Both the position numbers and the translations under genes were made by a program. From an uncultured Bacteroidales bacterium (GTDB lineage Bacteria; Bacteroidota; Bacteroidia; Bacteroidales; Paludibacteraceae), in assembly GCA_900317885.1 (NCBI GenBank), contig ONIM01000001.1, positions 51,813 through 115,812 on the forward strand: a stretch of DNA of 64,000 bases, given 5' to 3'. The notes beneath the pieces were generated by a model. The model saw only the letters and a list, made by a program, of their open reading frames with translations. It had not been told where the DNA came from and did no database searches. Of this stretch, positions 7,653-39,937 are shown piece by piece (the stretch's first letter is position 1; every line of letters begins with the position of its first letter).

Positions 7653-7686
7653 AAAAAAAGACTCGCTCACGCAGCGAGTCTTTTTC
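7653..7686. terminator. Bidirectional rho-independent terminator
   Basis: The arms GACTCGCT (7660-7667) and AGCGAGTC (7673-7680) enclose a 5-base loop, with an A run on the left and a T run on the right, so it can terminate from both sides. It serves the plus-strand barrel gene and the convergent minus-strand small gene. The last codons of the minus gene lie inside the hairpin. Confidence 0.9.
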
Positions 7687-8320
7687 TTCTATATACGATA
7701 TATCCGATTGCGAAGAGGAGCAGCGGAATCGCTGTACTGCCCACTGGCGTCTCTACCAATTGGTGGTTCTCCTGTCCTTCTTCCAGGTCAGTGATGGTAG
7801 GCGGTCCCGGTGCGCGTCTCGGCGAAGCCATCCGCGCCATCTGCGGCGCTTCCTGTGCTTCCGGTTGGGCTATCTGACGCGTCGAGGCAACGGCTAAGAA
7901 ACTCGTCATCGGCATCGTTACCCCACCGCCTTGCGTATAACTGATCCCCCGCGAAGAACCCGATCCGGAGGAGGTGGCAAGACCGATAGTCCCGCTTCCT
8001 CCGCCGCCTACCGAGTGCACCTCGGCGCTACTATGCAGATAAAGCCCTCTGCCTGCCGGCATCGACGAAGCAGAGGAACTCGCATGATACGAATAAGTAT
8101 AGCCGTAACCCGCATGGCGGAACGGGGAATAAGAAACAGCCGTGTGGTAGGACGTAATCGGTGATACAGGGCTCGCCGTCGGCGCAGGAGAACTTACTAC
8201 AATACCCGGATTGATATACACCTCCGGCTTATTGAAGAGCAGATAGACCGCTGCCATCAGCGATACGCCGCATATCAGAACGATCGCTGCCCAAACCAAC
8301 TGAATGCGGAATCGTTTCAT
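7667..8320 (-). CDS. Small CTERM-like partner protein of giant 1
   Basis: 217 aa. An N-terminal hydrophobic helix (LVWAAIVLICGVSLMAAVYLLF) is followed by a low-complexity Ser/Gly/Pro region and a C-terminus with three parts: TPVGS, the helix AIPLLLFAIGYIVY and the basic tail RRKRLAA. The small proteins at 16698-17216 and 29906-30430 share the last feature (PLGDVVWPLM plus helix plus basic tail). Such three-part ends are characteristic of sorting signals cut by exosortase-type enzymes in other groups; that parallel is inference. The start ATG overlaps the giant's TGA in ATGA, so translation is coupled. The middle has no recognisable domain. Confidence 0.75.
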   Translation of the reverse strand: MKRFRIQLVWAAIVLICGVSLMAAVYLLFNKPEVYINPGIVVSSPAPTASPVSPITSYHTAVSYSPFRHAGYGYTYSYHASSSASSMPAGRGLYLHSSAEVHSVGGGGSGTIGLATSSGSGSSRGISYTQGGGVTMPMTSFLAVASTRQIAQPEAQEAPQMARMASPRRAPGPPTITDLEEGQENHQLVETPVGSTAIPLLLFAIGYIVYRRKRLAA

Positions 8321-11300
8321 CGCTGAGCCTCCTTTCTGATGCTCGTGCGCGTTCCGAGGGCGTCGTATGCCGCACCCTGATAGAGGATCATCAGTTTGCC
8401 CTCATGGATGATCTTCTCCGGATCTTCGCGGTGCGGCTCTACGCCGATGGTCTCTATCTGTGTCGGCGTCCGCGGAGGCGTAGCGGTGATTAAGAACCGT
8501 TCTGCTGCGGTTTTGTTCGTCGCACGGAAGGTATAAGTGTTTCCGGTACGGATCTCCGCGGCCTCATCTGCCAGACGGTCGTAAAGATAGATCGTCTCGC
8601 CCTCGTAGTCGAACGAGAAGGTATAGATACTGTCCTCACCTGCGCGGAACGACAGGTATTGGCCTTCCGGCGTCTCTATCGCCGCTACCGCCATCTCGCC
8701 GCAGTCTTTGACTACAGCCAGCTTTGGAGCTATCGCATCGCCCTCTATCTTCCGTCCGTCCCATCCGTCCTCGTAGGACTGCGAGAAATCGCCGCGCGAG
8801 AGGATATGTACGCGATCGGCGCCAAGGCTGTCGCCTACTACCGTCAGTACCATTACCTCCGGTTCGCCGCTCTGCGCTGCACGCCGGGGCGCACGCATCG
8901 GCTGAGTAGAAGTCTTGAAGTACTTGGAGTCATATACCACGCGGTTGTACGCCAGTTTCAGACTCGCTCCGGCAGCTGTTGTTTTCACAAAGAATCCCTG
9001 CATGGCAGGAATCACCGAGTCGGCACCTGCCAGATACGGCGAAGAATGAATCGGCACTACGGCGTACTGACCCGGCAAGGTAGCGGCTGTACCGGAGTGG
9101 GCGTCAACCGGTGTACCATGAACGGTCCAGTTGTCATAAGTTCCGGAATGGTAGATATAGATAGCTGTCTCCGCGTTCGTGAAATCATCATCCTGCATCT
9201 CCTGAATCTTGATAGGTGCAGTCCAGCTATTCGCCGCGAAAGCGTAACCATCCGCATCGCAGTTATCCAGCTCGATGGTCGTCGTTACCGGAGCGTTCAG
9301 TTTGCCGGTGAAGGTATAGGTCTTCTTTGCCTTCTGGGTAATACAATAGCCCTCAAACGGCACCAGTACATCATTATTATCCACCCATTGCCATAATCCT
9401 CCCAAGCCATCCGTCGAGCCCTCCGTCCAGCGGCACATCCATGCGGCATAATAGAGCGACATCGCGGTCTTTGCGGCCTGGAAAGGAATACCTATATATT
9501 GCCAAACGGGATTAGGGGAAGTGGCATTCTCACCGCGGCTGTAATACTGCACCGTTGCCCGAACGTCAGACTCCTTATTACCATAGACGAATGAGCCGTT
9601 TCCTGTATCATCCGCTTTGATCAGCAGATCCTCCGCTTTGATGGTGGTCGGTGAAGCGTAACGGGTGTCATTCACCTTGGCTACCATACCCGCTACCGTC
9701 AGTCCTCCGTTCGGCTCTACGATAAGAATACCATCTACCGGATTACCCAGGGCGTCTTTTCCTTGGTTGACCTTCACACTACCGGCATGCGCATAGTCGT
9801 TATCTACATGACACTCCGCGATGATACGCGTCGGATGGTATGGCGTCGGCACGATGTTATAGCCGGGGAACCAATTGGCAGCCGTACTCCATTTGCCGTC
9901 ACCCTTGGTTCCCGTACCGCTATAAGCGGAAGGATTAAACCCGTGATTACCGGCGCCGTTATCAAATACCAGCGAGCAGTCGGCTATCTTCGACTCATCC
10001 GTCATGAGCAGGTAGTCAATCATCTGATGCATCACCACGCGCCCGGCGTCGGATAGATTGTCCATCTCATAGAAGTTAATGCCGTATAGCATCAATCGCG
10101 CAGGGAATACTATCTGCCGTTCGCAGCAGACAATCAGGTCGCGTTTATTATCCGTATCTTTTATGGTAGCTAAGAAGATATAATCCGGCGCCTCATTAAT
10201 CACGAATCCCTGCAGACCTTTCGCGTCTCCTTCCGTACTCAAACTGCTGAGTACATGTACCGTCGTATCCGCCTCATTGAGCACATCGACTCCTTCCGCA
10301 TCGCCGAAGATAGCGTGACCTGCGCAAAGAATCTTCATGTCCTGTACCTTCGGACTCGGATCCTTCGGGTTGGAATCGATATGCCAGTTCTTTCCGTTCT
10401 CTCCGGCTACGTATGCCTCGAAACTGAGAATCGGTTTCTTGTCTATCAGCGTACCGATAGCATTCGTATAACCCTTGGGGGTTGACAAGAAGTCTGTTAC
10501 TACCAATAAGTCATATTGCTCGTAATAGGCCGCTATCTCCGCTTCATCCTTCGTGGCGTAGCCGTTTACGCAAGTCACGTCATAGAAGCCGTTCAGATAG
10601 GTTAACAGATCTTTACAACTGGTCGAATCACTCGTTTCATAATCCGTAAAACTACCACCTTCGGCTATGCTTTCTTTCTCTGTACCGGTAATGATGAAAG
10701 CTATCTTTGACCGCTGACTTGCCGGATAAATACGGATAGTAGCATCTATAGTATAGGTGCGGGCAGGGCTGCAAGTATTCGCTACCGTGAAAGTAATCGT
10801 TTTCGTTAACGTTGAGGTATTTTTCAAATCAGGTACACCCTGAATATAGATGCGTTCATTCTCGTATTTGTAGGTACATCCGGGTATAGCCTCCGATGCC
10901 AATTGGAGAACATACTGAATACCGGTGGTATCAAAATCGCAGGACAGGCGCACCAGCGCCATATCTACATCTTGCCCGTCGCGGATAGTGATGGTAGGCA
11001 CTGTCGTTTTCAGCGTCGGAGCTATATCACAGGGCGCTATCCAATGGGCATACAAGGTGGCTGTTGCTACATCCTTGTCCCAGTTGCGCACGCCTGCTCC
11101 CAAGCCGTTGTAATACTGCGTTCCGGCTCCGTTCGGCGCGTCGTAGTAGCCGCCAAACACATACCCTGAACGCATCGGAAGGGTACGGATCTCCGGCATC
11201 TCATTGCCAAGAATAGCCGTCTCTGTAGTGGTATAACTATTGTACGCTCCGGGAGCGCTTAGGGTAATTTGGGACGAAGATACTATCTGTAAAGAAGTAA

Positions 11301-13482
11301 CGTATAGATTGCTTCCACTAGGCACTATGTAGTGCGTGCCGGCAGCCACCGAGACGGTGTATATCGCGTCGCCGTCAGTACTCTTTTTAGGAATCGTAAT
11401 CGGATTCAAAGTACCTTCTTTATTATCTGCCACATAGAATACCGGATTCTTCTGAACCCCGATTTTTACTGCTGATGGTTGATCCGTACGGAACTGGATA
11501 TAGTTGGTTCCCTTAGTGCCAACTTGTATTCTTTCGCTGTTTCCGGCTACAGCATTGGAACTGGGAGCATACTCAAAATCCGAGTCGTCCAACCATGCCT
11601 TCGCCCCTGAGCGAACACCTATACGCGGTTTGTTAAAGTTCAATGTATAGCCTACGCTACCGGGAGTAGGCAGAGGAGTTCCTGTTTCATTAGCAATGAC
11701 TTGCACGATTTTTACATCGATACTCTCTACCGTGATATACAATGACGCCGGAGTCAGTTTGTCATTGTCAATGGTATAGGTCTGAGTCAACGGGGAATTG
11801 CCGGAAACACTATAGTTTGATAAAGAAGATACAGAATTGGCAGTCCCGATTGGGTTCTCTTTAATGTCACCGATATAGATTTTTTTAGCGGAACCGTTCG
11901 TGTTATATACGACAATAGTGAATTCTGTATGAGTGGTCTTGCAATCATACCGAACCATTCGGTCATGATAACTCATATTAGACCATCCTGTTACACCTCC
12001 CCCTAACTGAACTCCCTTGGTATAACTCACGCCATCGTAAGAGGTGGAAGAAACAGAAGCCATCGTTGTAGCCCCGGTATAGAAATCGCCGGTAAGCGTA
12101 CCGGTTCCGGATGTACCGGAGATACCTTGTAAGTAATACGCCGTGCTTGCTATTACCATGACAGCTTCGTCCGAAACAACCGATACCGGCGAATGCCCCG
12201 CCTCTGTATTCGTCACGACGCAAACATATGTGCCCGATGTAGTGGGAGTATATGTATCTGCTGTAGCACCGGAAATATCTACTCCGTCTTTTTTCCACTG
12301 ATAGGACAGCGTGCCGCTACCCGTAGCCGTTACGCTCAGCGGAGTCACCGTTTCGCCGGCATCATAGCTTGCTCCAACAGGCTGGGTCGTGATCACCGGA
12401 GCTGCAGATGGCTCATAGAAATCCTCAGCGGTTACCACCACCGAAGTGGCGGCACTCCAGCAACCGTCGGAATGGTACGACCTGATATAATAGGTGCCTG
12501 CCGTAGTCACATTCTTCGTATTACCGGACTTGGTGGTAGCCGTACCGTCTGCTGCATCCTGCCAATACCAAGTCTCCCCTGTCCCCGGAGTTCCACCCGC
12601 CGTCAGCGTAATCTCTCCACCGCTCACTGTTCCTTTGCTAATCGCCCCCGGCGCCGTGGCTGTACAGGTTGCTTCCAACTCAACGCTGATGCCTACTATT
12701 ATAGCATTCGAACCGGAAGATGTAAATGTAACTGTTTTGGTATCAGCTCCGGCTGTCCACGCATTACTGCCATAGGTTCCTGTATTAGCGGACAAGTTGG
12801 ACATAGTATTATGCGATTCACATACAAAATTAACTTTCTTAATATTATGTCCACTAGAAGTTATTACCAGATTTTTTGTATTGGCTAAAGAGATTCCGTT
12901 ATTAGAAATACTTCCTGTTGATGTCATTGATACATCCGAAGTTGCATTAGACTTTGTATAAGATACGGTACCGGAAGAAATCGTAAAATTCTTGGAAAAA
13001 TATTCCTTATTTGAAGTCAGATTAACGACAATTGGGGCTACGCGCACCTTTTTACTACTCTGAGCAGAGATGCTAAACGTAGCAGAAGTTAGTGTCGTTG
13101 AGTTTGGGATAAAAGTATACACATTTGAAACCGGTCCGGTAATAGTTCCTTCTTCTGATGTTAGGGTATTTATAGGATAACTTGATTGTGATGTGAAAGC
13201 TATGCTTGAGATATAGGAACCATCTTTGGATGCTACCACAAAGGTTCCTGAGCCTCCGTTTGTTCCTATTTGCAACGCACTATTTCCAAAACTAACATCT
13301 CCTGTTACAGAGCCTATTACAGAAAACGCTCCCATACCATTGGCTCGTGCGGCGGGATTAGAGCCGGTTGGGTTGGTGTATGTGTCTACAAAATTATCAC
13401 CCCAAGCCTCTCCGGCACAGAGTACCAGACTGATAAAAAGTATCGAAAGTGGTTTAATGGATTCAAGACTAAAGCGCTTCAT
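8317..13482 (-). CDS. Giant secreted multidomain protein 1 (1721 aa)
   Basis: Signal peptide (LSILFISLVLCAGEAWG), then a Ser/Thr-rich beta region. An Ig-like domain lies near residues 355-445 (LSYQWKKDGVDISGA...TYVCVVTN) and an InlB-type repeat near 737-818 (GYVFGGYYD...LYAHW). A Rossmann-like domain near 925-1165 is shared with giants 2 and 3 (KIAFIITG, YDLLVVTD, AIGTLIDKKPILSFEAYV). A beta-strand repeat region follows (KWSTAANW...LIVEPNGGLTVAG). The C-terminal tail (KLMILYQGAAYDALG) is of a type common in Bacteroidales secreted proteins and probably a secretion or sorting tail. A consensus promoter lies directly upstream. It is likely a surface or extracellular protein; the ligand is unknown. 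The first 230 codons are clearly richer in A+T than the rest. Confidence 0.85.
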   Translation of the reverse strand: MKRFSLESIKPLSILFISLVLCAGEAWGDNFVDTYTNPTGSNPAARANGMGAFSVIGSVTGDVSFGNSALQIGTNGGSGTFVVASKDGSYISSIAFTSQSSYPINTLTSEEGTITGPVSNVYTFIPNSTTLTSATFSISAQSSKKVRVAPIVVNLTSNKEYFSKNFTISSGTVSYTKSNATSDVSMTSTGSISNNGISLANTKNLVITSSGHNIKKVNFVCESHNTMSNLSANTGTYGSNAWTAGADTKTVTFTSSGSNAIIVGISVELEATCTATAPGAISKGTVSGGEITLTAGGTPGTGETWYWQDAADGTATTKSGNTKNVTTAGTYYIRSYHSDGCWSAATSVVVTAEDFYEPSAAPVITTQPVGASYDAGETVTPLSVTATGSGTLSYQWKKDGVDISGATADTYTPTTSGTYVCVVTNTEAGHSPVSVVSDEAVMVIASTAYYLQGISGTSGTGTLTGDFYTGATTMASVSSTSYDGVSYTKGVQLGGGVTGWSNMSYHDRMVRYDCKTTHTEFTIVVYNTNGSAKKIYIGDIKENPIGTANSVSSLSNYSVSGNSPLTQTYTIDNDKLTPASLYITVESIDVKIVQVIANETGTPLPTPGSVGYTLNFNKPRIGVRSGAKAWLDDSDFEYAPSSNAVAGNSERIQVGTKGTNYIQFRTDQPSAVKIGVQKNPVFYVADNKEGTLNPITIPKKSTDGDAIYTVSVAAGTHYIVPSGSNLYVTSLQIVSSSQITLSAPGAYNSYTTTETAILGNEMPEIRTLPMRSGYVFGGYYDAPNGAGTQYYNGLGAGVRNWDKDVATATLYAHWIAPCDIAPTLKTTVPTITIRDGQDVDMALVRLSCDFDTTGIQYVLQLASEAIPGCTYKYENERIYIQGVPDLKNTSTLTKTITFTVANTCSPARTYTIDATIRIYPASQRSKIAFIITGTEKESIAEGGSFTDYETSDSTSCKDLLTYLNGFYDVTCVNGYATKDEAEIAAYYEQYDLLVVTDFLSTPKGYTNAIGTLIDKKPILSFEAYVAGENGKNWHIDSNPKDPSPKVQDMKILCAGHAIFGDAEGVDVLNEADTTVHVLSSLSTEGDAKGLQGFVINEAPDYIFLATIKDTDNKRDLIVCCERQIVFPARLMLYGINFYEMDNLSDAGRVVMHQMIDYLLMTDESKIADCSLVFDNGAGNHGFNPSAYSGTGTKGDGKWSTAANWFPGYNIVPTPYHPTRIIAECHVDNDYAHAGSVKVNQGKDALGNPVDGILIVEPNGGLTVAGMVAKVNDTRYASPTTIKAEDLLIKADDTGNGSFVYGNKESDVRATVQYYSRGENATSPNPVWQYIGIPFQAAKTAMSLYYAAWMCRWTEGSTDGLGGLWQWVDNNDVLVPFEGYCITQKAKKTYTFTGKLNAPVTTTIELDNCDADGYAFAANSWTAPIKIQEMQDDDFTNAETAIYIYHSGTYDNWTVHGTPVDAHSGTAATLPGQYAVVPIHSSPYLAGADSVIPAMQGFFVKTTAAGASLKLAYNRVVYDSKYFKTSTQPMRAPRRAAQSGEPEVMVLTVVGDSLGADRVHILSRGDFSQSYEDGWDGRKIEGDAIAPKLAVVKDCGEMAVAAIETPEGQYLSFRAGEDSIYTFSFDYEGETIYLYDRLADEAAEIRTGNTYTFRATNKTAAERFLITATPPRTPTQIETIGVEPHREDPEKIIHEGKLMILYQGAAYDALGTRTSIRKEAQR

Positions 13483-13508
13483 TTTTCAGATATATTTAAA
13501 ATTTGGCA

Positions 13509-13576: not shown

Positions 13577-13604
13577 ACACAATTTTCGTCAATTAATCTC
13601 CCTC

Positions 13605-15155
13605 CTACAGCCGCTCATACTCTGCGGCAGCCATCAGGAAGGCTCCGAGCACCTTTCCTTCCGTATTATCCTGGATGGGTACATCCTTGCCTATCAGGTA
13701 GTATGCCGCGTTACCCCAACGGTCTTTACTCAAGCCTGCGGACTGACAGGAAGAAGTGATGGTCAGTATCCCCTTGGTACTTTGTACTTTGTCACTTGGT
13801 ACTTTGTTGTCACTTTGTACTTTGTCGTCACTTGGTACTTGGCGGACGAAAGTACGCAAGATCCCCTCGTATCCTCTCTTTCCCGCCTCCGCATGGTCAA
13901 TCAGCCCCAGCCGACTACCCTTCAGCAATGCCGCGGTAATGAGGCACGAAGCCGAAGACTCTAAATAATTACATTGTGTACCGCCTTCGCTGACGTTCGT
14001 ATATTTCTCCGAACCTGTCTCATCGATGCCTTGCGTAGCACATTTCTCCGGTCCGTATTGCAGCAACTGATACCAACATCCCGTCTCTTTATCCTGCCGC
14101 GCTACCAGACCGTCCGCCAGCAGCTGCAGCATCTCCCGTAACTCGTCGAAATGCTGCGCCGAAGGAAGAGGATCTCCCTCTAACCTCTCACCACTAACCT
14201 CTAACCCTTTAAGGTATGCCTCCAGCACATCCACCAGCGCTAAGATATACCATCCTGCCGCACGACCCCAATACTCCTCCGAGTGATAGACGGTACTATC
14301 CGCCCTGCACGGATACGCATGTCCGGCCTCGTAGATTGCCTTCGCATTCTTATTCACCGTCACGTCCGTAAACAGCACGTGGTACGGCAGTTGCTTCTCT
14401 TCGTCCCAGAGGTACGGCCACGAGGCGTAGAACTGGTCATAGACGTCGTTCCATCCTAAGTTCGTTCCCTCGCAGGCACCGACGACTAACAGTTGCGCTA
14501 ACAACGCCGGACCCATATACGCGCCGTCGCACCACATCTGACCCCAATAGCTCTTCGTCGGGTCATCCGTCGCTTTGTGCATCCATCCACCGTTGGGCAG
14601 CGAGTATTTCTCTTTGTGTTCCTCTAATCCTCTTGCCGCACGCCGCATCTGCTCCATGTAGAACGCAGCCCGTTCGGCGTTCTCGAATTTCCCGCCGGGT
14701 TTGGCGCCTTCGTATAAGCCCAGATACACCTTCGCGCAGTTCAGGTCGTCGAGGATGCCGCCTTTCATCATCTGGGCCGCATGCGCCACGCACGCGTCGC
14801 TCTCTGCCCATTCCGCCAGCCCTTCATACCAGGCATCCGCCCATGCGGAGTCGCGGTACAGGCTCCATACGTCCAAGATGCCTTTGGCTACCACGCCGGG
14901 CACGTAATCCCATGTAGCCGCTGTCTCAGGCTGCACGACACCGTTGGTGCTATTCGCATTCGGGAAACCGACAAGATTGTCCTTGTTGTACCACCCGCTC
15001 ATGCGATCGTTGATCATCGCACGGCTGTATCCCGTACGCATCTCGTTCGCATTACGGACGTCACTGTCGCGTCCTTTCCCGGTCGCCCCTCCGCATCCCG
15101 CGAGCACCACTCCCGCGGCGCATAACGCCAGAATAATCCGGTTTTTCATAATCAT
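13605..15155 (-). CDS. GH88/GH105-type unsaturated glucuronyl hydrolase, lipoprotein
   Basis: 516 aa with a lipoprotein signal (GVVLAGC, Cys21), so probably membrane-anchored. The (alpha/alpha)6-barrel motifs of the YteR/GH105 family are visible: GILDDLNCAKVYL, QMWCDGAYMGPALLA (the Asp is in the expected active-site position) and EEYWGRAAGWYILALVDVLE. Members remove unsaturated uronic acids from pectin or similar fragments by a hydration mechanism. Two loops carry low-complexity insertions encoded by short DNA repeats: GLEVSGERLEG (from about 14179-14213) and VPSDDKVQSDNKVPSDKVQS (from about 13775-13845). The gene has its own promoter and terminator and no other carbohydrate genes beside it. 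The start could also be the ATG six bases in. Confidence 0.85.
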   Translation of the reverse strand: MIMKNRIILALCAAGVVLAGCGGATGKGRDSDVRNANEMRTGYSRAMINDRMSGWYNKDNLVGFPNANSTNGVVQPETAATWDYVPGVVAKGILDVWSLYRDSAWADAWYEGLAEWAESDACVAHAAQMMKGGILDDLNCAKVYLGLYEGAKPGGKFENAERAAFYMEQMRRAARGLEEHKEKYSLPNGGWMHKATDDPTKSYWGQMWCDGAYMGPALLAQLLVVGACEGTNLGWNDVYDQFYASWPYLWDEEKQLPYHVLFTDVTVNKNAKAIYEAGHAYPCRADSTVYHSEEYWGRAAGWYILALVDVLEAYLKGLEVSGERLEGDPLPSAQHFDELREMLQLLADGLVARQDKETGCWYQLLQYGPEKCATQGIDETGSEKYTNVSEGGTQCNYLESSASCLITAALLKGSRLGLIDHAEAGKRGYEGILRTFVRQVPSDDKVQSDNKVPSDKVQSTKGILTITSSCQSAGLSKDRWGNAAYYLIGKDVPIQDNTEGKVLGAFLMAAAEYERL

Positions 15156-16446: not shown

Positions 16447-16463
16447 ATAAAATAAATTTGCCG

Positions 16464-16697: not shown

Positions 16698-17216
16698 CTA
16701 CGATTTAGCGGAGCGGTATCGTTCTTGCGATCCATTTGCCGAACGCGACCGCGCACGTGCCTTTTTATATCCCGCGTACGCGCAAAGGAGCAGCATCAGC
16801 GGCCAGACGACATCGCCGAGGGGATTCTCTTCGGTATCCTCCGGGTTGTTAATCCTACGGATTTGCCCCGGACGCCCTGATGCATTACTCTGGCCTACTC
16901 CATAAGCCTCGTCATTCACCGTTCCGTCGCTATTGAGCATCGGCTGTTCTTCAGTACTTAACTGGGAGGAATAAGCGCTGGTGGATTGGAAACCCATCGT
17001 CGGAGCAGTAGCCGTTGCGGCTACTTTATACTCCGCGTGTTGGTACGGTTGCTCGTATCTGACTCCTTTGTACGTACTCTTATAGTCCACGGCTTGAGCC
17101 TGCGCGGCGCTAAGCAGCGCCGGCAGGAAAGCCAGGATCATCACTAATTTTGTATTACGCATGATAGTTTTCATAATGCTTTTCATAATTCTTTCCTCTT
17201 TAATTCTTTCACTCAT
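16698..17216 (-). CDS. Small CTERM-like partner protein of giant 2
   Basis: 172 aa. Signal peptide (LVMILAFLPALLSAAQAQA), a conserved region (DYKSTYKGVRYEQPYQHAEY), then the C-terminal end NPLGD, helix VVWPLMLLLCAYAGY and basic tail KKARARSR. It is the paralogue of 29906-30430; the 5' halves are nearly identical in DNA. ATG 17216 overlaps the giant's stop (TAATG). A second start at 17186 (MKSIMK) has a better Shine-Dalgarno (AAAGAGGAAAG) and gives a more normal signal peptide, so the real start may be there. No enzymatic domain is seen. It is exported and probably held in the membrane by its C-terminal helix, or sorted through it. Confidence 0.75.
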   Translation of the reverse strand: MSERIKEERIMKSIMKTIMRNTKLVMILAFLPALLSAAQAQAVDYKSTYKGVRYEQPYQHAEYKVAATATAPTMGFQSTSAYSSQLSTEEQPMLNSDGTVNDEAYGVGQSNASGRPGQIRRINNPEDTEENPLGDVVWPLMLLLCAYAGYKKARARSRSANGSQERYRSAKS

Positions 17217-29905: not shown

Positions 29906-30430
29906 TCACGCCTCTTTGCGCGCACGAACCTTTTTATATCCCGCGTACGCGCAAAGGAGCATCATCAGCGGCCAAACGACATCGCCCAGAGGTACGTTAC
30001 CCGGATCATTAGGATCAACAATTGGATTGACCGGTAGTCCGGTTACGTCATCGTAGCCATCATTATTACCATCTACTCTTCGGATACTTCCCGGATGATG
30101 TCCTGAACCTACTCCGTAAGCCTCGTTATTTACCGTTCCGTCGCTATTGAGCATGGATTGCTCTCCATTCCCGAATTGGTCAGGGAAAGCGCTGGTAGAC
30201 TGGAAACCCATCGTCGGAGCAGAAGCCGTCGAGGCTACTTTGTACTCCGCGTGTTGGTACGGTTGCTCATATCTAACTCCTTTGTACGTACTCTTATAGT
30301 CCACGGCTTGCGCCTGCGCGGCGCTAAGCAGCGCCGGCAGGAAAGCCAGGATCATCACTAATTTTGTATTACGCATGATAGTTTTCATAACGTTTTTCAT
30401 AATTCTTTCCTCTTTAATTCTTTCACTCAT
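29906..30430 (-). CDS. Small CTERM-like partner protein of giant 3
   Basis: 174 aa from ATG 30430 (MSERIKEERIMKNVMK). The signal peptide and first 60 residues are almost the same as in 16698-17216. The middle is variable, and the end again has VPLGD, helix VVWPLMMLLCAYAGY and basic tail KKVRARKEA. Upstream in-frame codons (ATG 30442, TTG 30454) come from a short direct repeat (ATTAATTCATTC) after the giant's stop and are less likely starts; MKNVMK at 30400 also has a good Shine-Dalgarno. The near-identity with the giant 2 partner points to recent duplication or gene conversion. Function unknown; the conserved end suggests membrane sorting or anchoring. Confidence 0.75.
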   Translation of the reverse strand: MSERIKEERIMKNVMKTIMRNTKLVMILAFLPALLSAAQAQAVDYKSTYKGVRYEQPYQHAEYKVASTASAPTMGFQSTSAFPDQFGNGEQSMLNSDGTVNNEAYGVGSGHHPGSIRRVDGNNDGYDDVTGLPVNPIVDPNDPGNVPLGDVVWPLMMLLCAYAGYKKVRARKEA

Positions 30431-30457
30431 TAATTCATTCATTAATTCATTCAACCA

Positions 30458-33400
30458 TTACTTAACTACCTTTCCTGTTGCGTCATACAATCTTCCTCCT
30501 CGGATGATATACAACTTGTCGTTATAAATGATTTTCTGTACTCTCGGAGCGGCAGCATCCAGATTCTCCATGCCTGTAGCCACTTCCGGCGCATTGATTG
30601 CCGTGCGGCTGATGTAGAAGCGGTTGGCAGCGTCACCTTCCTCGAAAGTGAAGGTATAACTATTCTCCGCACTCATCAGCGTAGAGTTTTTCAATTTCAG
30701 GTCATTGAGGTAGTACTCTTCGTTGCCTCCAAGGAATGTAAACGTATATTCCGTTTCCTTACCCGGAGCAAAGCCAAGTACCGTTCCTTCAAGTTCCGGA
30801 AGCGCAGCTACAGCCATCTGTCCGGCTTCGGTCTCGGCGTACAATGTAGCTGTACGCCCATCGCAAGGCAGATATTCTGCTTCCCATCCATTATCGAACT
30901 CCTCGTCGAAACGTTTTCCTTCAAACAGCCGGAGGTCAGCATATGTCTTACTATCTGCTACGTGGATAGTAGTCATCGTAATATCCTTATCCGCGGCCGC
31001 ACGCCTCGGTGCACGCAGCGGCTCATTCAGATTCTCCGTTGCTGTCTTGCGAACTACTTCTTTGTAGTTGAGTTCCAGACTCGTCTCTGCGCTTACACGG
31101 ATCAAGAACGCCTGCATTGCAGGAATAACCTTCAATCCGCTCCATCCGCTCCAACCGGAACCCTCAATAGGTATGGCTAACCATTGACCTGCAGATCCGG
31201 AAGTTCCGGAAGACGCTCCGCCGTCACCATCGTTACCTGTTACATAGATATAAATTGTCTTCTGAACATTATTATCGTTACCGATTGCCGTCTTGAGAGA
31301 CGCAATGTCTATCGGAGCAGTCCATGAGTTACCGATGATGTTGTTGGCAAATTCAGCGCCGGAGCCGTTAGTAAGTGCTATTTCCTTCTGACTTGTTGAA
31401 GCCAAATTACCTTTCATCGTGTAATTCATTGCTGATGTAGAATTGGTAGTAATTCCGACACATTCGAATGCTCTAAGGTCTTCATAATAACCGCGACGCT
31501 CCCATCCGCCATTTTCCTTCCATACATAGGTTAGAATCATCTTGCCATCATGCTTCTCATTCGCGAAACTCGGGTACACGGACACTACTTCCATCGGCAC
31601 TGCCATATACTGGAACTGATATGTCGAAGAAACTATTCGTCCCAAACTATACAGGTTCACCGTAGCCTGGGTCTCAGCCTCTTCGTTATCGAAGATCAAG
31701 GCAGCCTGTCCGGAACCATCCGTATTGATGATTAGGTCTTCCGGAGTGGTCGGCTTGAGGTCGTTGGCTGCGAAATACGGAGCTTCTGCTCTACGTATCT
31801 TACCGCCTACGATCAACGCGCCGCCGGCTTCGATGGTCAGGGAGCCGTTAGCTGCACTGCCGGTCTTTTTACTACTGGTTCCTTTCGTAGCAATATCTAC
31901 TTGTGCGACATGGAAGGTATTTCCGTTCTTTACCACACACGGCGCCAAGATACGTACTTTCGCTTCGTTGGAGGGAAGACCACCCTTTGACCAGTTGGTA
32001 GCTTTATTCCAGTCGTCATCAGTTGCTCCTGTGAAGTAGTTCGAGCAGTCATCCACCTCCTCCATGTTGGTCTTCAGGAGGTAGGTCAAGATGTTTCGAA
32101 TAACGATCTTTCCTTCAGGAGTCAGTGCACTTGTCGGGCGAAGCGCCTTGGCGTTAACACCCATTACCAGCAGACGGGCAGCAGGTTCTTCCTGGCGCTC
32201 AATAGCAGCTTGCAGCGTTCCATCGAGAATACGTCCAAGGCCCAACAGACTACCTGCCGCACTTCCGTTAAAGCCTTGCAGTGCCGGTTTCTTGTCACCA
32301 GCCGTCTCTACATTGTACGCCACACCATTATAGATACCTTTCGTGGAATCGACTAAGATCACATGACGGAAAATATCGTCACCAATTACTTCGTCCCAAA
32401 CATTCGTACCATCCTCTGCTTCCGGTAGACCTGATTTATAAATCTCATGGTCTTTACATTCCAGACGAATCTCGTACTGACGCGGATTCGGCGAAGACGG
32501 GTTACCGGCAATACCCTTGGCGCTCCAGTTCTTCAAGGCACTCACGTAAGCCTCCATGGTGAGAATCGGGCGCACATCCACCATCGTACCGAAGGCGTTG
32601 ACATAACCCTTGGTCTTGTAATCGCCGCTTGGAGTGGTGTTTGTACTCGGGTCATCAGTAATGAGAATAGCATCGTATTGCGAATACTCTTCGCGAATAT
32701 CCTTCTCATTAGTCGTATGATAGATATTCCGCTCCGTCAGATCAAATGCACCTGTCGGGTTCGTAGATTCGTTATAATTTAGATAGTCGTAGAGGTCCGT
32801 ACCGCTGGCGTGTCCGGATGTCACAGCATCCCATGCGCCGTCTTTCGTACCATCTACCACAAAGGCAATGCTCGGACGGTCCGTTTTTGCCTGCTTATGG
32901 ATAATGATACTTAACTCGCTTGCACTGTTTCCACAACCATCGTTTGCTGTAATCTTCAGCGTTACGTCGCCGGCAGCCCATGTACCATCGTCATGAGCCG
33001 GAGCATCACCATTATCTTTCGTTCCGTTCAGATAGATGATACCATTCTCGCCCATGTGGAAGCCACAGCCGGCAAAACCGGTCGTTGTTGTGCTGTCGCT
33101 ATTCCAGATCTCGGTACTGCCAATCTTCACGGTAAAGCCTGTAGCACCTTTTGTCTGAACTAATTCTACATCCGGCGTACGACGATCTTTCTTCACGTAC
33201 CATTGATCAACAATTTTCGTAGCGTTCATCAGCTCCGAAGCCTTTATTGTTATGGTATTTTTCGATGCCATTGCGCAGTGACCATAACCGGCAACCGTGT
33301 TATCGACTACTACGTAGTATTCGCCGGCTACTGAGGTGGTATAGGTTGCTGTCTGCGCGCCATCAGCAGAACCCAGCGAAGCACCATCCTTGAACCATTG

Positions 33401-36400
33401 ATAACTTACACCATCCAGAGCCGTGTGACCGGTTACTGTCATTTGGATATTTCCGCAACCAACATCTGTCGTACTGATAGTACCCTGTTCGTCGATACAA
33501 TTATCTTCTACATGGATGTTATACGTAGCTGTTGCCTCTTCGAAACAACCGCTGGCTGCCAAGGTTGCCGTGATAGTAGCGTCACCTTCGGAGCCGACGA
33601 TATGCACGGTTCCGGCGGCATTCACAGTAGCAACAGCAGGGTCGCTACTCTCATACGTGATTGCACCCAGACTGTTCTTATCTTGACCTGCAACAAACGT
33701 AAAGTCCACATCACCGGTTTCTTTTTCAAGACGGGTATTCGCGGGTTTCCAATCCTCATCCGTGTTCAACGCCGGATCCCAACTCAGGGTCGGAGTAACC
33801 GGACCGCCGCCTCCGGCTCCGCCATCTACATCGAAGCCATAGAGATAACCATCGCTACTTCCTATAAATACATAATATCCGGCCGCCAATGAAGCATATG
33901 TTGCCTTAATACCGCCGGCTGTCGAGATATTCACAACTCCGCTGGAAACCGTTGCGGCACCTGCAGTTGTACTCTTGCCGGAAGAAGCGAATGCAGCTCC
34001 AACGGCTGTTACGCTGGTTATCTTCGTCTTTGACGAATAGTCAGATGTTTCTATTGCACTCAATTCTTTGGCAGAACTGAACGAATATAACGTGAATGAC
34101 TTACCCGTAGAACCTGCATTGAAATAAACATCCAATGCTGAAGTCGCTGTCAATTTAAATACTACGTTCAATCGATCTGCGCGATATCCTATCTTTTTGT
34201 CTGCATCATTCAATCCTGACGATCCGGTAGCAATTAACTTGGCTAATCCGCTTCCGACATATTGCGTTGTATTGGAAGAAGTGGACATATCCGCAAATTT
34301 CTCACCGGCATCATTCTTCTCGGATGACAAGAACCGAACTTCTACTACACCTCCGCTACAATCCGTTAAGGCCTCGTCGTGCGTCAACTCCGCCGGGGCA
34401 TACGTTCCGTCAGCAGGGACAGAGAGCGTGAAGGTGATCTGTGTTGCATTAGCCGGAACAACCGTTGTGATGTCAAAGTCTGCCGTTACATAGGTCTTTC
34501 CGTTGTCCGAACCAGAGGTATATTCATCTTTCACAATATTCTTCAGCGTCACGCCTTCAGTAGCCGTCAGTTCCAATTGATCTTTGTATGCGTTATCCCA
34601 TGCCGCTTGGTCAATGACTGCCTTCACTTTATAACCGCTACCGCCGCGATAGAGAGCATCATCCACTTTAGTGATAGTCCAAGTAGCCGTTACTGCCGTA
34701 CCCCACTTAGCCCAGTATTGTTTGTCTCCTACCGAACCGGACTCCAAGATTACAGCCGGTACACCCGAGAAATCGCTCGCCTCATACCAACCGGCAAAGA
34801 TTGCATCTGCCTTAGTCGGGATAGGCAAGGTGTAGTCCTCATCAAACTGGGTATAAGAGGCTTTCGGTGCCGGATCAACCGGGTTGGTTCCTCCATCTAG
34901 ATTATATGTAATAGTATAAGTAGGATATACTATAATATTATATCCTTCACTATTATGCGCGTTACACGTACCATTAGCCACCTCACACCAGTACTTTCCG
35001 GCATCACCTGCCGCACAAGAAGCCTTGGTGAAAGTATAACCTGCTGAACCGGTAGCCGCAGCCTGTACTTGGGATTTACCGCCCCACGTGTCTCCCTTAT
35101 ACCATGTATAGGTAGTCAAGTTGTCGTAGTTCTCGCCGTCATGCGAAGCTGTTAAGGTAATCGTCTGACCCGGCACGTATTCCGATACACCACTGATTGT
35201 CGGTGCGGAAGGCGTTGCACAAGCGTAGTCCTGTACCGCTCCGTAGAACTTCACATCCGGACCCATACGGAAGTCCGTCGGAGAACCGGAGGTCTTCCAT
35301 GCATAAATGCGGATAGTTACTGCACCGCGCAGAATCTTTCCGCTACCGAATACAAACGATGCGTCTGTCAAGGAAGCCTCTGCAGAAACGGCTACGGTAT
35401 TGGTACTGTTATATACATTGCCTGCCGCATCGGAGATCTGCGCCTTGTAGGTGCGGTTTCCACTATTTACGTTGAAGACTTTGCAATCAAACTTGCTGAT
35501 TTCTACTTGCTTGGTAGCGCCGATAGTGAAGGTGAACCGGGCACTCTTGTCAGGAGCCGCTGTACTCGATACTTCGCCTGATGCCATTGCGGTTTTCGCG
35601 GTAGCAGAATTCTTGGCTTTATTGTCGCCTTCGTCGTGTGAAGTGCCTATTGAACTAATATTCGTTCCATCCGTGGTACCTGTGCCTGTCGTAGTAGCCC
35701 ACGCTTCATTATCAGCGGTCTTCATTTTCCATGTTACCAACGCCGTACTTGCAGGTGCCCATTTTGCATAGAGGTGAACATCTGCGCCGTCAATCGTAAT
35801 CTTCTGGCCGTCCGAGTATGCCGCACTTCCTTCGGCAGTAGTAGCCCAACCTTGGAAATCATAGCTATCTTTCGTTAACGGATAGCGGCTGTCGTTATAA
35901 CTCAGTACGGTTGCTTTTGCGCCATCGGAATAAGAGGTGGTATCGCTCACGAATCCGCTCTCAGCACCATTACCATGGTAATAGACATGATAGCAGGTAC
36001 CGCCACTGGAAGTTGAACTATACACCTTCAGCGAGTCCATGTAACACGTCTTACCGGATCCATCTGCGGTGAAACGGAATTTGAACCGCAGCGCACTGGC
36101 TTTCTTGCCCGAAGAAATAGCTATTACTTTCCGAGTAAACTCTTTATTGCCATTCGGAGAAGCAACCGCTGTAGCAGAAAGCAACTGGGTAGAGTCGGCA
36201 GAGAAATCATCAGTCGAACACCATACTGCCACTTTACAACCGGCCTTATCACTTCCCGCAAAATAGAACGAAATAGAATCTACATTGCTGTATGCGCTGT
36301 TCGTTTTTATCGATCCCTTATTTGAACTACTCGATTTAATCTGACACGAATACGCATTATTGCGCACTACAGCTGTTGTGGAGTTGTTAATTGTATTTCC

Positions 36401-39400
36401 ATCTGCGTCTTTATACTTGAATCCTAATGACGGAGCACTGGTGAATACTAAGTTCGAACCACCTACTTCCTGATAAGTCGTATATCCTGTTGCAGGTACG
36501 TCAGCTGTGCTCTTTGCCACGCCGCCAGCGTCGCACTCTTCCTCCCAACGAGCATAGAGCGTGATGTCTGCAGTCAGAGGATAAGTTGCTCCGCCGTTGC
36601 CTACTTTCTCTCCGGCTGTAGTGTACCAGCCGTCTAACACATAACCCGTTCTCTTCGGGTTAGGTAATGTCACGCTTGCGCCGGTTGCGCTTGGCGGAGT
36701 TGCACCGCTTGTTGCACCATTGTAGTTGTAGGTTACAGTGTGACCGGAAGCCGCGCTGACGGTGATGGTTGCATCCATCACTTTTTCGCAGTAGGTAGCA
36801 TCAGCGGCTTGGGTGGCAGTCACGGTAGCTGTTCCTGCTGAGGTAGCTGTGAATGATGTACCGGCAATAGTAGCACCCGTACCGTTAGCGTTCTTTACGG
36901 TATAGGTCACGGCTCCACTACTATTACTGGTCCATAATGTACTCAAATTCAATGCACTACCGCCTACGGTATATGCACCATTATTGAAAGTCGCGGTAGG
37001 CTCGGTGCAAGAAGCCGGACGAGTGATAGTGAGGGCTGTAATATTACGACTATTAGAACTCGAACTTCGCCATGCATAGATTACATTTTTACCTATTAAG
37101 CTGCTTTCAGCGGGTACAACGTAATATTTATGATAGTTATCACCTAAATTACTTGTAGCCGGGGAGGTCGCATATATATTGGTAGTGGTGATACTAATTT
37201 GATTGGTATTATTGTCGGCAACTATAAACTTAATAGTATCCCCTTCTGCTAAAGTACATCCAAACTCCAGTTTCAACATTGCGTCATTACCATTCAATAT
37301 AATCTTCCCTGGATTCGCATTACCTATTTTAGCCTTTGTTGCATCAGAAGCATGTTTATTACCTAACGTTGCTGTTCCATTCACAATAGTAGCGTACGTT
37401 TCTAACGACACAGAATCTCCAGCTGTTATATTCGATGCCTCGCCAACATTACCCATTGTCAGTGAGTACATTGTACCAGAAGATGGACAACTTATAGTAC
37501 GCCATTGAGCATAAAGCGTTACATTGGCATCGACAATCGTCACTTTTTGGCCAACAGCATACCATTTACCAGAAGATGCTGCCGTCCTCCAACCAATGAA
37601 CATACTTCCATCCTTAGCCAGCGTGTTCCTGCCCAATACGGTTGCTACATCGTCAGCAGCATAAGTATTTCCATCCGTCGGAACAAGTCCTGATCCTCCA
37701 TTGGCATTATAGGTTATGGTATATGCAGCCGCAGCAGTAACGGTGATCGACTTATTTACAGACGCCGTGCTACAATAACTGTCTGCGCCGGTTACGGTAG
37801 CCGTGATAGTGGTCGTTCCGGCTTTGAGATAACTGATAGCACCTGAAGTCTCATTCACGCTTGCAACAGTTGCATCGCTACTGCTGAAACGCAAACCTGC
37901 TGAATAATTAGTAGTCACAGAAGCAGTCATACTTCCGCCTACTGTTCCATCTGCCGGAGCTGTATTCCATGCAGCCGTAACGGCGGTACGTACGGTAGCA
38001 GATTTAGTTGCGGCATCACTCCATGAACCGCAAACCGTATTCTTCGCACGGAGATAAATCGTTTTGCTGCCTGCCGTAGCGTCCGTCGTGTAATCTATGG
38101 AAGCCGGATTGCTTGTACTGGTACCACCTGCTGCATCCTGCCAATACCAAGTTACGTAACTCGGCAAACCGGCTATATCTGCGCTGAATGTAGCACCTGC
38201 ACTACAACCATCCGTTGCCGTAATGGCAGAAGCCGTCGGTGCATCCGGAGTAATGCAATCCCAAACGGCATAGAGGGTTACATTGCCTGTCATAGCGTGT
38301 GTATCACCCGGATCCCATGCACCATCAGGAGAAGCTGCAGAGGATGATGTATTCCAACCAAGGAAATCATATCCCTCTCTTGTCGGTTGCGTAGAAGAAA
38401 CCGTCAGTTGGCATGGACTTGCCTCCACGGAAACATAATCCGCAGCAGGAGCGCCACTACCTCCGTTGGCATTGTAGGTAAGTTTATAATGAGGTACGAA
38501 AGTGACATACCAGTTATTATCTCCCGAATTGGCATAGATGCGGAACTTACCTGTTTTATTTGCATAGGAAGTACTCATACCTCCATCCAACCAAGTTGAA
38601 GGTCCTGTTTTTGTACGAAGTCCCGATACATTCACTTTTTCGCTATATGGAGAACACCACACATAACCCAATTCCGTTTTCAGACCGACAAAGATTTTCC
38701 TTCCTATTGCGGCATTGGTTAAGGTTGTTATCGGTGTGTACCACTCTGTCTCATCCCAATTTTCTGTTTTGGGAGAAAATACCAATGTCGAGTCATGAGT
38801 CCAGTCTCCAGTTCCAAAATTCAACGTGTATCCTGTCGGTACAAAACTTACATATTTGTTTTCGTCTCCACTATCAGAATAAACATGGAATCTACCCAAA
38901 CCTCCTCCTAAATTACCTTCTTGAGGATTCGCGCCAAACTTTTTGTCTCTTTTGTGATAGAATGGCATAGGTACATTATCTGTAGTACCTGTGAACCCTC
39001 GTGTTTGTGTTTTTGCTCCAGAACCATCCCAAGTTACATTATACCACTCTGCGTAAGGCAAAGGCATTTCGTCTGTTAAATAGCTTGTAGTTGAGCCTAC
39101 TTGAGAGAAACAAATTGGAGTGGTATTCCAGTCTCTTCCATGCTGGTAATGGAATTCATATGAATCACAGCCAGAAGCTACAGGTTCTACCGTAAGTACA
39201 ACTTGACCCAAAAATGCGGTGTTCGCGTTTCCCACGATATTTGTGTATGTTCCGTCTGTAGAACCTTGCAGTTTACATTGGAAAGATGCATATTTAGTAT
39301 TTCCTGAACTATAGGTTGTAGCATTATAGGTCATAATACGCACAAACATCACATCCCTAGCATTATGCGAAGCAGAGATAGCAAAATTATGGCCATCATT

Positions 39401-39937
39401 ACAATTTGTCATTCCTGAGTTTGCTATTACATCTGATATCACATAACCGCCATTTGTTGCAGTTACAACTGCATTACTAGGCTCAGAAACGGTTTGACCA
39501 AAAATAGCAATTATTCTTTGACTATTTGCGCTTGACCTCCATTTTACATTTGCATTGGTGATTCGATAACCTTCAGGAACCGAGAACTTTATATATGTAG
39601 TATTTCCATTTAAGGATGGATACGACACCGAGCTTCCACTTACGCAATATATTTGTACGCTTGAATTAGAAATAGATTTATCTACCGTTACAATAGGAGT
39701 AGTTGACGTTGTCGTATTCCAACTGCCATTTCCTGTACCATCATAAGCTCCACTAAAAGTAAACTCCGTTCCCCACGCCATACCGATATTAGCCACACTC
39801 AGCATGAGTACAGCAAAAATCATGGCAAGATTTCTGAGGTTACCTCGGTGTAACATTAGCCTTGACTGTCGCTTCACCGTCGGCTCACCGTCGGGATTAG
39901 ACTTAATTTGATTTAAGTTAATGTAAAAGTTTTTCAT
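30458..39937 (-). CDS. Giant secreted multidomain protein 3 (3159 aa)
   Basis: Starts MKNFYINLNQ, has a long polar lead and the signal helix LAMIFAVLMLSVANIGMAW (37-55), closely like giant 2. An N-terminal region rich in Ser/Thr/Tyr is followed by five InlB-type repeats near residues 484, 741, 1066, 1316 and 1672 (each with TYNxxG...FxGW...LYAxW), mixed with Ig-like domains. The shared Rossmann-like domain lies near 2352-2632 (SIAFVVDG, YDAILITD, AFGTMVDVRPILTMEAYV), followed by the beta-strand repeat region (GSLTIEAGGALIVGGKI) and the tail LYIIRGGRLYDATGKVVK. It is likely an extracellular surface protein. The first 300 codons are A+T-rich compared with the remainder. It may be co-transcribed with the membrane protein gene 51 bases upstream. 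Confidence 0.85.
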   Translation of the reverse strand: MKNFYINLNQIKSNPDGEPTVKRQSRLMLHRGNLRNLAMIFAVLMLSVANIGMAWGTEFTFSGAYDGTGNGSWNTTTSTTPIVTVDKSISNSSVQIYCVSGSSVSYPSLNGNTTYIKFSVPEGYRITNANVKWRSSANSQRIIAIFGQTVSEPSNAVVTATNGGYVISDVIANSGMTNCNDGHNFAISASHNARDVMFVRIMTYNATTYSSGNTKYASFQCKLQGSTDGTYTNIVGNANTAFLGQVVLTVEPVASGCDSYEFHYQHGRDWNTTPICFSQVGSTTSYLTDEMPLPYAEWYNVTWDGSGAKTQTRGFTGTTDNVPMPFYHKRDKKFGANPQEGNLGGGLGRFHVYSDSGDENKYVSFVPTGYTLNFGTGDWTHDSTLVFSPKTENWDETEWYTPITTLTNAAIGRKIFVGLKTELGYVWCSPYSEKVNVSGLRTKTGPSTWLDGGMSTSYANKTGKFRIYANSGDNNWYVTFVPHYKLTYNANGGSGAPAADYVSVEASPCQLTVSSTQPTREGYDFLGWNTSSSAASPDGAWDPGDTHAMTGNVTLYAVWDCITPDAPTASAITATDGCSAGATFSADIAGLPSYVTWYWQDAAGGTSTSNPASIDYTTDATAGSKTIYLRAKNTVCGSWSDAATKSATVRTAVTAAWNTAPADGTVGGSMTASVTTNYSAGLRFSSSDATVASVNETSGAISYLKAGTTTITATVTGADSYCSTASVNKSITVTAAAAYTITYNANGGSGLVPTDGNTYAADDVATVLGRNTLAKDGSMFIGWRTAASSGKWYAVGQKVTIVDANVTLYAQWRTISCPSSGTMYSLTMGNVGEASNITAGDSVSLETYATIVNGTATLGNKHASDATKAKIGNANPGKIILNGNDAMLKLEFGCTLAEGDTIKFIVADNNTNQISITTTNIYATSPATSNLGDNYHKYYVVPAESSLIGKNVIYAWRSSSSNSRNITALTITRPASCTEPTATFNNGAYTVGGSALNLSTLWTSNSSGAVTYTVKNANGTGATIAGTSFTATSAGTATVTATQAADATYCEKVMDATITVSAASGHTVTYNYNGATSGATPPSATGASVTLPNPKRTGYVLDGWYTTAGEKVGNGGATYPLTADITLYARWEEECDAGGVAKSTADVPATGYTTYQEVGGSNLVFTSAPSLGFKYKDADGNTINNSTTAVVRNNAYSCQIKSSSSNKGSIKTNSAYSNVDSISFYFAGSDKAGCKVAVWCSTDDFSADSTQLLSATAVASPNGNKEFTRKVIAISSGKKASALRFKFRFTADGSGKTCYMDSLKVYSSTSSGGTCYHVYYHGNGAESGFVSDTTSYSDGAKATVLSYNDSRYPLTKDSYDFQGWATTAEGSAAYSDGQKITIDGADVHLYAKWAPASTALVTWKMKTADNEAWATTTGTGTTDGTNISSIGTSHDEGDNKAKNSATAKTAMASGEVSSTAAPDKSARFTFTIGATKQVEISKFDCKVFNVNSGNRTYKAQISDAAGNVYNSTNTVAVSAEASLTDASFVFGSGKILRGAVTIRIYAWKTSGSPTDFRMGPDVKFYGAVQDYACATPSAPTISGVSEYVPGQTITLTASHDGENYDNLTTYTWYKGDTWGGKSQVQAAATGSAGYTFTKASCAAGDAGKYWCEVANGTCNAHNSEGYNIIVYPTYTITYNLDGGTNPVDPAPKASYTQFDEDYTLPIPTKADAIFAGWYEASDFSGVPAVILESGSVGDKQYWAKWGTAVTATWTITKVDDALYRGGSGYKVKAVIDQAAWDNAYKDQLELTATEGVTLKNIVKDEYTSGSDNGKTYVTADFDITTVVPANATQITFTLSVPADGTYAPAELTHDEALTDCSGGVVEVRFLSSEKNDAGEKFADMSTSSNTTQYVGSGLAKLIATGSSGLNDADKKIGYRADRLNVVFKLTATSALDVYFNAGSTGKSFTLYSFSSAKELSAIETSDYSSKTKITSVTAVGAAFASSGKSTTAGAATVSSGVVNISTAGGIKATYASLAAGYYVFIGSSDGYLYGFDVDGGAGGGGPVTPTLSWDPALNTDEDWKPANTRLEKETGDVDFTFVAGQDKNSLGAITYESSDPAVATVNAAGTVHIVGSEGDATITATLAASGCFEEATATYNIHVEDNCIDEQGTISTTDVGCGNIQMTVTGHTALDGVSYQWFKDGASLGSADGAQTATYTTSVAGEYYVVVDNTVAGYGHCAMASKNTITIKASELMNATKIVDQWYVKKDRRTPDVELVQTKGATGFTVKIGSTEIWNSDSTTTTGFAGCGFHMGENGIIYLNGTKDNGDAPAHDDGTWAAGDVTLKITANDGCGNSASELSIIIHKQAKTDRPSIAFVVDGTKDGAWDAVTSGHASGTDLYDYLNYNESTNPTGAFDLTERNIYHTTNEKDIREEYSQYDAILITDDPSTNTTPSGDYKTKGYVNAFGTMVDVRPILTMEAYVSALKNWSAKGIAGNPSSPNPRQYEIRLECKDHEIYKSGLPEAEDGTNVWDEVIGDDIFRHVILVDSTKGIYNGVAYNVETAGDKKPALQGFNGSAAGSLLGLGRILDGTLQAAIERQEEPAARLLVMGVNAKALRPTSALTPEGKIVIRNILTYLLKTNMEEVDDCSNYFTGATDDDWNKATNWSKGGLPSNEAKVRILAPCVVKNGNTFHVAQVDIATKGTSSKKTGSAANGSLTIEAGGALIVGGKIRRAEAPYFAANDLKPTTPEDLIINTDGSGQAALIFDNEEAETQATVNLYSLGRIVSSTYQFQYMAVPMEVVSVYPSFANEKHDGKMILTYVWKENGGWERRGYYEDLRAFECVGITTNSTSAMNYTMKGNLASTSQKEIALTNGSGAEFANNIIGNSWTAPIDIASLKTAIGNDNNVQKTIYIYVTGNDGDGGASSGTSGSAGQWLAIPIEGSGWSGWSGLKVIPAMQAFLIRVSAETSLELNYKEVVRKTATENLNEPLRAPRRAAADKDITMTTIHVADSKTYADLRLFEGKRFDEEFDNGWEAEYLPCDGRTATLYAETEAGQMAVAALPELEGTVLGFAPGKETEYTFTFLGGNEEYYLNDLKLKNSTLMSAENSYTFTFEEGDAANRFYISRTAINAPEVATGMENLDAAAPRVQKIIYNDKLYIIRGGRLYDATGKVVK

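Follow-up and report, generated by a model that had tools for sequence, protein, structure and literature searches.

Giant Mfa5-like genes paired with small genes for candidate exosortase substrates in an uncultured Bacteroidales bacterium

Gene pairs in the window and their products

The stretch of DNA analyzed here (the window) comprises 64,000 nucleotides from an uncultured Bacteroidales bacterium of the Paludibacteraceae (assembly GCA_900317885.1, contig ONIM01000001.1, positions 51,813-115,812 of the forward strand) and carries three gene pairs, in each of which an open reading frame (ORF) for a giant protein is followed by an ORF for a small one. The original prediction, made from the sequence alone, had proposed three such pairs as one surface module, and all six ORFs are present:

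8317-13482, minus strand: giant 1 (1721 aa); N-terminal signal sequence, Ig-like domains, and a shared C-terminal module at about residues 860-1710
7667-8320, minus strand: small partner 1 (217 aa); N-terminal membrane helix, low-complexity stalk, and an end made up of PVGS, a transmembrane helix and basic residues
17216-27046, minus strand: giant 2 (3276 aa); signal sequence, List_Bact_rpt (Flg_new), Ig-like and Big_5 domains, and the shared C-terminal module
16698-17216, minus strand: small partner 2 (172 aa); signal peptide, FQSTSA motif, RR motif, and a PLGD-transmembrane-basic end
30458-39937, minus strand: giant 3 (3159 aa); signal sequence, List_Bact_rpt repeats, and the shared C-terminal module
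29906-30430, minus strand: small partner 3 (174 aa); signal peptide, FQSTSA motif, RR motif, and a PLGD-transmembrane-basic end

Giant and small genes are closely spaced. In pair 1 they overlap as ATGA and in pair 2 they share one base (TAATG), both as predicted; the gap in pair 3 is 27 bases rather than the 28 first counted, and for this pair a TTG at 30454, farther upstream, is a possible alternative start.

About 860 C-terminal residues are common to the three giants, with 40% identity between giants 2 and 3 over 1146 aa and 30-31% between giant 1 and the other two over about 900 aa, while the N-terminal parts are unlike one another except for short local matches; this confirms the combination of shared C-terminal regions with differing N-terminal parts in the original prediction. 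A Rossmann-like domain, a strand-rich region that opens with an NW motif, a further region containing NSWTAPI and VIPAMQAF, and a KIIYxDKLYIIxxGRxYDATGKVVK-type tail make up the module. Within the window's own genome, the full module is confined to the three window giants; the 24 further matches at E<=1 (nine of them at E<=0.001) cover the C-terminal part only, mostly the tail. The parts of the module are located in giant 3 as follows:

30461-30550, minus strand: C-terminal tail KIIYNDKLYIIRGGRLYDATGKVVK, resembling a T9SS (type IX secretion system) C-terminal domain; similar tails occur on other proteins of the same genome
30905-32038 (approximate), minus strand: region homologous to Porphyromonas gingivalis Mfa5 residues 645-1026, made up of the NW-strand and NSWTAPI/VIPAMQAF regions
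32051-32905, minus strand: Rossmann-like domain (predicted fold), with equivalents at about 18800-19639 in giant 2 and about 10006-10752 in giant 1

A profile of the module matched Mfa5 (6to1_A) among PDB sequences with E 1.3e-26 (E 2.7e-22 in another search), module positions 338-727 aligning to Mfa5 residues 645-1026. Mfa5 is a fimbrial tip protein of P. gingivalis that carries a T9SS C-terminal domain and requires the T9SS for export, and the part homologous to the module lies outside its published model, which spans residues 99-664 (PMC7835359). Unlike Mfa5, which was studied as a construct of residues 21-1044, giants 2 and 3 exceed 3100 aa and have a glutamine amidotransferase-like domain, other N-terminal parts, and a private CTERM-like partner; no von Willebrand factor domain was matched in a Pfam scan of giants 1 and 2. 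By homology, the giants are predicted to be Mfa5-like adhesins with T9SS-style tails. In keeping with the expected secretion route, the genome encodes PorV (C28:1927-3045, above cut-off, E 5e-127), the T9SS component for which it was searched.

For the AlphaFold2 model of the Rossmann-like domain (mean pLDDT 89.5), class-I glutamine amidotransferases gave the closest fold match (1i7q_B, E 2.4e-4), with low TM-scores of 0.37/0.52; IFT52 (E 0.004) and, at E 0.1, an oligosaccharyltransferase subunit ranked lower. The domain is expected to be non-catalytic.

Small proteins 2 and 3 share 72% identity, and small protein 1 is much more distant with the same P-[LV]-G-[DS]-transmembrane-basic end. The predicted layout of export signal and shared end thus holds for the end in all three, whereas the start of small partner 1 does not, by eye, resemble a cleavable signal peptide. 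Across the family described below, the layout is an export signal, a low-complexity stalk rich in proline, glycine, and acidic residues, the motif P-[ILV]-G-[DE], a membrane helix, and a basic end. An export signal combined with a motif-helix-basic end is characteristic of CTERM proteins and is found here as well, with an N-terminal membrane helix in place of the signal in small partner 1; this architecture favors reading the end as a putative sorting tag of the exosortase type over leaving it an undefined helix.

Conservation of the pairs and a proposed exosortase link

A profile built from the three small proteins retrieved two more from the same genome (E 5.7e-9 and 0.07), the genes of which both overlap the stop codon of a giant without the Rossmann-like domain, and a third was found by inspection behind a giant without a full-module match. 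With the resulting five-sequence profile, matches were obtained in 34 of 61 genomes, every one of which belongs to the genus of the window's genome (34 of 37 genus genomes). Matches outside the window's genome numbered 99, of which 89 were examined and 10 of the weakest (E 4.9e-4 to 0.007) left out. By eye, 79 of these 89 small genes lie behind a same-strand ORF with a T9SS-like tail, five do not, four are at a contig edge, and one is unclear. The 79 include locus L074 (G006:C31), at which the giant's frame continues into the small gene and the giant's usual tail is lost.

The pairing is also evident from the side of the giants. Giant loci carrying all of the module or its C-terminal half were taken from named genomes, mostly metagenome-assembled genomes of rumen Bacteroidales/Paludibacteraceae; 77 were kept from 119 stretches, and 76 of the 77 have a small gene directly downstream. 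A script that looked downstream of the giant for a small ORF encoding PxG, a helix, and a basic end detected 69 of these; seven of the eight misses show a small gene on inspection (one truncated where the contig stops, another running into the following gene), leaving L297 as the single giant without one. The same script was positive for 4 of 224 other ORFs at the same loci, these controls being stop-to-stop frames of at least 250 codons on either strand and not all real genes. The sets of 77 giants and 89 small genes are not independent because some genomes are common to both. In the 69 scripted pairs, giant and small gene overlap in 17 cases, are 0-60 nt apart in 49, and are farther apart in three.

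Adjacency thus holds both ways, and the idea of the small protein as a dedicated partner of the giant withstands the refuting condition set with the original prediction, namely small genes mostly alone or giants regularly without a partner. The earlier interpretation as a whole, in which the partner may be an anchor, chaperone, or processing factor and the N-terminal part of the giant would set ligand specificity, is partly supported. Inclusion of the Rossmann-like domain in the definition of the pair, by contrast, had to be abandoned: small genes also follow T9SS-tailed giants without this domain, and only 50 of the 77 fetched giants contain it. The T9SS-like tail alone was also rejected as the determinant of pairing. 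From the 23 tail-only matches in the window's genome beside L012, 16 were examined, two of them at contig ends and one not tail-like, and only one of the 13 informative genes has a small gene.

In a set of 79 ORFs upstream of small genes in the genus (at least 150 codons; 75 from the paired set), tails matched TIGR04183 in 22 cases, NF033708 in 13, and PF18962 in 18 at E<=0.1. By eye, type A-like tails occupy the same place in some of the 77 fetched giants as the window-type tail does in others, and for this reason the two tail types are taken here to be interchangeable, as a working assumption rather than a proof.

The end of the small protein is conserved throughout the family. In 63 aligned small proteins, a set pre-filtered for P-x-G, the P and G of this motif are invariant, usually in the form P-[ILV]-G-[DE]; by eye, the PxG-transmembrane-basic end is also present in nearly all of the 89 unfiltered matches. 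Two length classes were distinguished: a long one (at least 185 aa; 18 of 69), often with an N-terminal membrane helix, and a short one with, by eye, an ordinary signal peptide. The ATGA overlap with the giant is found for 10 of the 18 long proteins vs 3 of the 51 shorter ones. No curated family label fits the small proteins in Pfam and NCBIfam scans. The weak NCBIfam matches of the 63 proteins (E<=1) include several models of the CTERM type, namely JDVT-CTERM (8), PID_CTERM (4), GVDTG (4), PGAP (3), MYXO (3), and Loki (3), the best being to PID_CTERM (E 3e-4) and JDVT-CTERM (E 0.0044), as well as DLW-39 (4), Pal (2), and single matches to other non-CTERM models.

A sorting tag of this type calls for an exosortase. 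A search with PF09721 matched 21 of the 61 genomes, seven of them above cut-off, and did not match the window's genome; a ten-sequence exosortase profile found the enzyme there at C85:3290-3883 (E 7.8e-83), with its Cys, Arg, and His kept. Exosortases of the genus are compact (about 190 aa) and invariant in these three residues, which we take to be catalytic. Five of them passed TIGR04178 with 55.8-66.6 bits against a cut-off of 23; XrtX (NF046081) is the closest model for these five proteins, but their 65-83 bits fall below its cut-off of 170. A PDB sequence search with the exosortase profile returned nothing at E<=1. From its sequence, the enzyme of the window's genome is assigned to an XrtX-like exosortase family, and it would be the cognate enzyme of the small proteins.

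Across the order, an exosortase was detected in 136 of 344 sampled genomes. In the genus, a single XrtX-like enzyme is present in 73 of 81 sampled genomes (30 of the 31 better ones), and small proteins are present in 78 of the same 81. In the order sample, the small-protein profile matched 17 genomes outside the genus, 16 of which have an exosortase (p 1.9e-6), and PID_CTERM matched 75 genomes, of which 67 have one (p 4e-24), against the background of 136/344; these p values assume independent genomes, an assumption that does not hold.

Gene neighborhoods in relatives connect the same elements. Among 150 listed PID_CTERM places, at least 15 are followed on the same strand by a listed exosortase within 700 bases. 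By eye, a T9SS type A-like ORF precedes 12 of 30 and 27 of 40 inspected PID_CTERM genes; 13 of the 30 adjoin an exosortase, one of which also lies behind a T9SS type A-like ORF, and the set of 40 includes three places with fewer than 220 bases upstream and leaves out G053, a known exosortase neighbor. Likewise, by eye, a T9SS-type ORF precedes 16 of 24 outside-genus matches of the small-protein profile. At L163 and L213, a T9SS-type ORF, a CTERM gene, and an exosortase gene are consecutive. At L161 (G251:C52), a CTERM-like gene (PLDGG) stands between an ORF that is presumably glycosyltransferase-like and an exosortase gene.

Proposed mechanism, rival explanations, and known systems

These observations suggest that two protein-sorting systems cooperate in building one surface structure. 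It is somewhat probable that the pairs represent a two-gene surface system, in which a T9SS-exported Mfa5-like giant is combined with an exosortase-processed small partner for attachment or assembly. The giant would be exported by Sec, cross the outer membrane via the T9SS, and be displayed as an Mfa5-like adhesin. The small protein would also be exported by Sec and be anchored through its C-terminal helix in the inner membrane, where the XrtX-like exosortase may cut it at P-[ILV]-G-[DE] and pass the stalk to a carrier. The processed stalk would then reach the outer membrane or the surface and may serve there as a dedicated attachment or assembly partner of the giant. The proposal draws on the conserved pairing and close spacing, the tag-like ends, the exosortase with its three residues, its co-occurrence and gene neighborhoods in relatives, the Mfa5 homology, and PorV, whereas cutting of the small protein, its passage to a carrier, and contact with the giant are inferred. 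A wider possibility, put forward tentatively and less likely than the two-gene system itself, is that T9SS and exosortase are coupled gene by gene across Bacteroidales, a private processed substrate anchoring or assembling each such giant adhesin. If so, small proteins of this kind would be a main substrate class of Bacteroidota exosortases, and the coupling would account for the surface-colonization defects common to exosortase and T9SS mutants.

Several results weigh against the proposed two-gene system. As to the pairs themselves, 5 of the 89 small genes stand alone; no small protein of the window, nor any of those scanned from the rest of its genome, scored above the cut-off of a CTERM model, and PID_CTERM was unmatched in this genome at E<=0.001. 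The IYDATGK-type tail was not matched by T9SS models (NCBIfam for giants 1 and 3, Pfam for giants 1 and 2, and scans of the modules), and a model of the tail region had no significant PDB fold match (best E 0.32). Co-occurrence within the genus says little because small proteins and exosortase are both near-universal there, and it is imperfect: eight genus genomes have no clear exosortase, including G034 (97% complete; five small proteins, with only a fragment-like exosortase match at E 0.03) and G012 (92% complete; five small proteins), and G004, G399, and G412 have an exosortase and no small protein at threshold. Similarly, 8 of the 75 PID_CTERM genomes lack an exosortase match, and at E<=1 seven still have none, the eighth (G321) having one at E 0.29. 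Finally, the 15 exosortase-adjacent PID_CTERM cases mostly involve distant exosortases (E 1e-9 to 1e-19, with only G374 at 3e-28), and of 49 exosortase loci scanned, which include 16 from the genus, only two have a CTERM-like neighbor (L161 and L163; a third flag was the enzyme itself), neither of them a genus locus.

The main rival explanation, unlikely on present evidence, holds that the small protein is a periplasmic chaperone or escort of the giant, anchored in the inner membrane by a helix that serves as an anchor and is never acted upon by an exosortase. One dedicated small gene per giant at close spacing would suit an escort, as would the two fairly complete genus genomes that carry small proteins without a clear exosortase and the separate location of the genus exosortase gene, which is not beside the small gene. 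In addition, the subclass with an N-terminal membrane helix could span the membrane twice. A plain anchor, however, needs neither a PxG kept before the helix while the stalk varies nor the link to exosortases seen in relatives, and by eye the stalk is of low complexity and does not resemble a folded chaperone.

It is improbable, in turn, that the small protein is an exosortase substrate independent of the giant, with the two sharing an operon for joint expression only. Such independence is in line with the absence of a preceding T9SS-type ORF at 12 of the 14 exosortase-adjacent CTERM genes inspected on their upstream side and with the five solitary small genes of the genus, but it does not account for a private copy of the small gene at 76 of 77 giants, nor for the covariation of small and giant classes seen in the ATGA overlaps (10 of 18 long vs 3 of 51 shorter proteins). 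It is very improbable that the association is an artifact caused by gene calling or by a repetitive region in common: small ORFs do run in frame into neighbors at L039, L074, L250, and on contig C38 of the window's genome, but the same layout and strand recur in 79 of 89 matches from other genus genomes, against 4 of 224 in the control.

The proposed two-gene system has partial counterparts among known ones. PID-CTERM proteins (NF046080) are, like the small proteins here, small exported Bacteroidales proteins ending in P-[IL]-[DG]-x, a helix, and a basic end, and their genes are found next to an exosortase or downstream of a T9SS-type gene; in our reading, the PID-CTERM and XrtX models belong together. 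The present system differs in that the window small proteins are unmatched by PID_CTERM and the genus exosortases stay well below the XrtX cut-off. No mention of PID-CTERM was found in the literature searched. Giant cargo with a dedicated partner gene is also known from SprB, a type B cargo of the T9SS, which is paired with PorP/SprF, and the present pairs resemble it in this respect. PorP/SprF is an outer-membrane barrel, in contrast to the small exported protein with a C-terminal helix found here. With T9SS type A cargo (TIGR04183/PF18962, sorted by PorU) the system shares the type A-like tails encoded upstream of many genus small genes and PID-CTERM genes, although the window giants end in a tail type that these models do not recognize.

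As in the PEP-CTERM/EpsH and GlyGly-CTERM/rhombosortase systems, a three-part C-terminal tag would direct many substrates to one enzyme (PMC7468200); unlike in those systems, each substrate gene here is tied to a giant T9SS-type gene. The same source speculates on a linking-sugar chemistry common to T9SS and PEP-CTERM, and attachment of T9SS adhesins is otherwise explained there by their own C-terminal domain and PorU (PMC7468200). In Flavobacterium johnsoniae, xrtF and a neighboring gene are needed for surface colonization and biofilm formation, as are T9SS genes, and that study leaves the exosortase substrates to future work (PMC10936215). A pairing of T9SS and exosortase-substrate genes was not described in the literature searched, part of which was available as excerpts, and to that extent the original view that no system with this exact pair has been described stands; the parts are nevertheless of a known kind since PID-CTERM and XrtX exist as NCBIfam models. 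The gene pairs would add a partner to T9SS adhesins and offer a concrete, testable set of candidate substrates for Bacteroidota exosortases, as well as a possible reason for the shared mutant phenotype.

Neighboring genes and frame changes

In-frame continuations of small genes occur at a few places. On contig C38 of the window's genome (about 159946-166389; L032) and at G281:C31:51298-51744 (L192), a small CTERM-like protein runs in frame into the next giant, the fused ORFs being 2180 and 1927 aa and the following giant having its own signal sequence. At L039 and L250, the small protein runs in frame into a following enzyme gene, which we take to be GH88/GH105-like; a relative of this enzyme encoded in the window (13605-15155) had no NCBIfam match.

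The window contains further large genes on the minus strand. The overlapping ORFs 44281-48210 and 47985-50681 (together 44281-50681) resemble, by eye, one giant split by a frame change at about 48 kb. A fourth giant (54082-63633, 3183 aa) has four choice-of-anchor J stretches and a T9SS-like tail and does not match the other giants; the next ORF of at least 100 aa behind it encodes a 319-aa protein, which is not a small partner. Between these, ORF 50715-53891 encodes a protein whose C-terminal part is OmpA-like (with a weak PorE-like match), and a shorter relative adjoins it.

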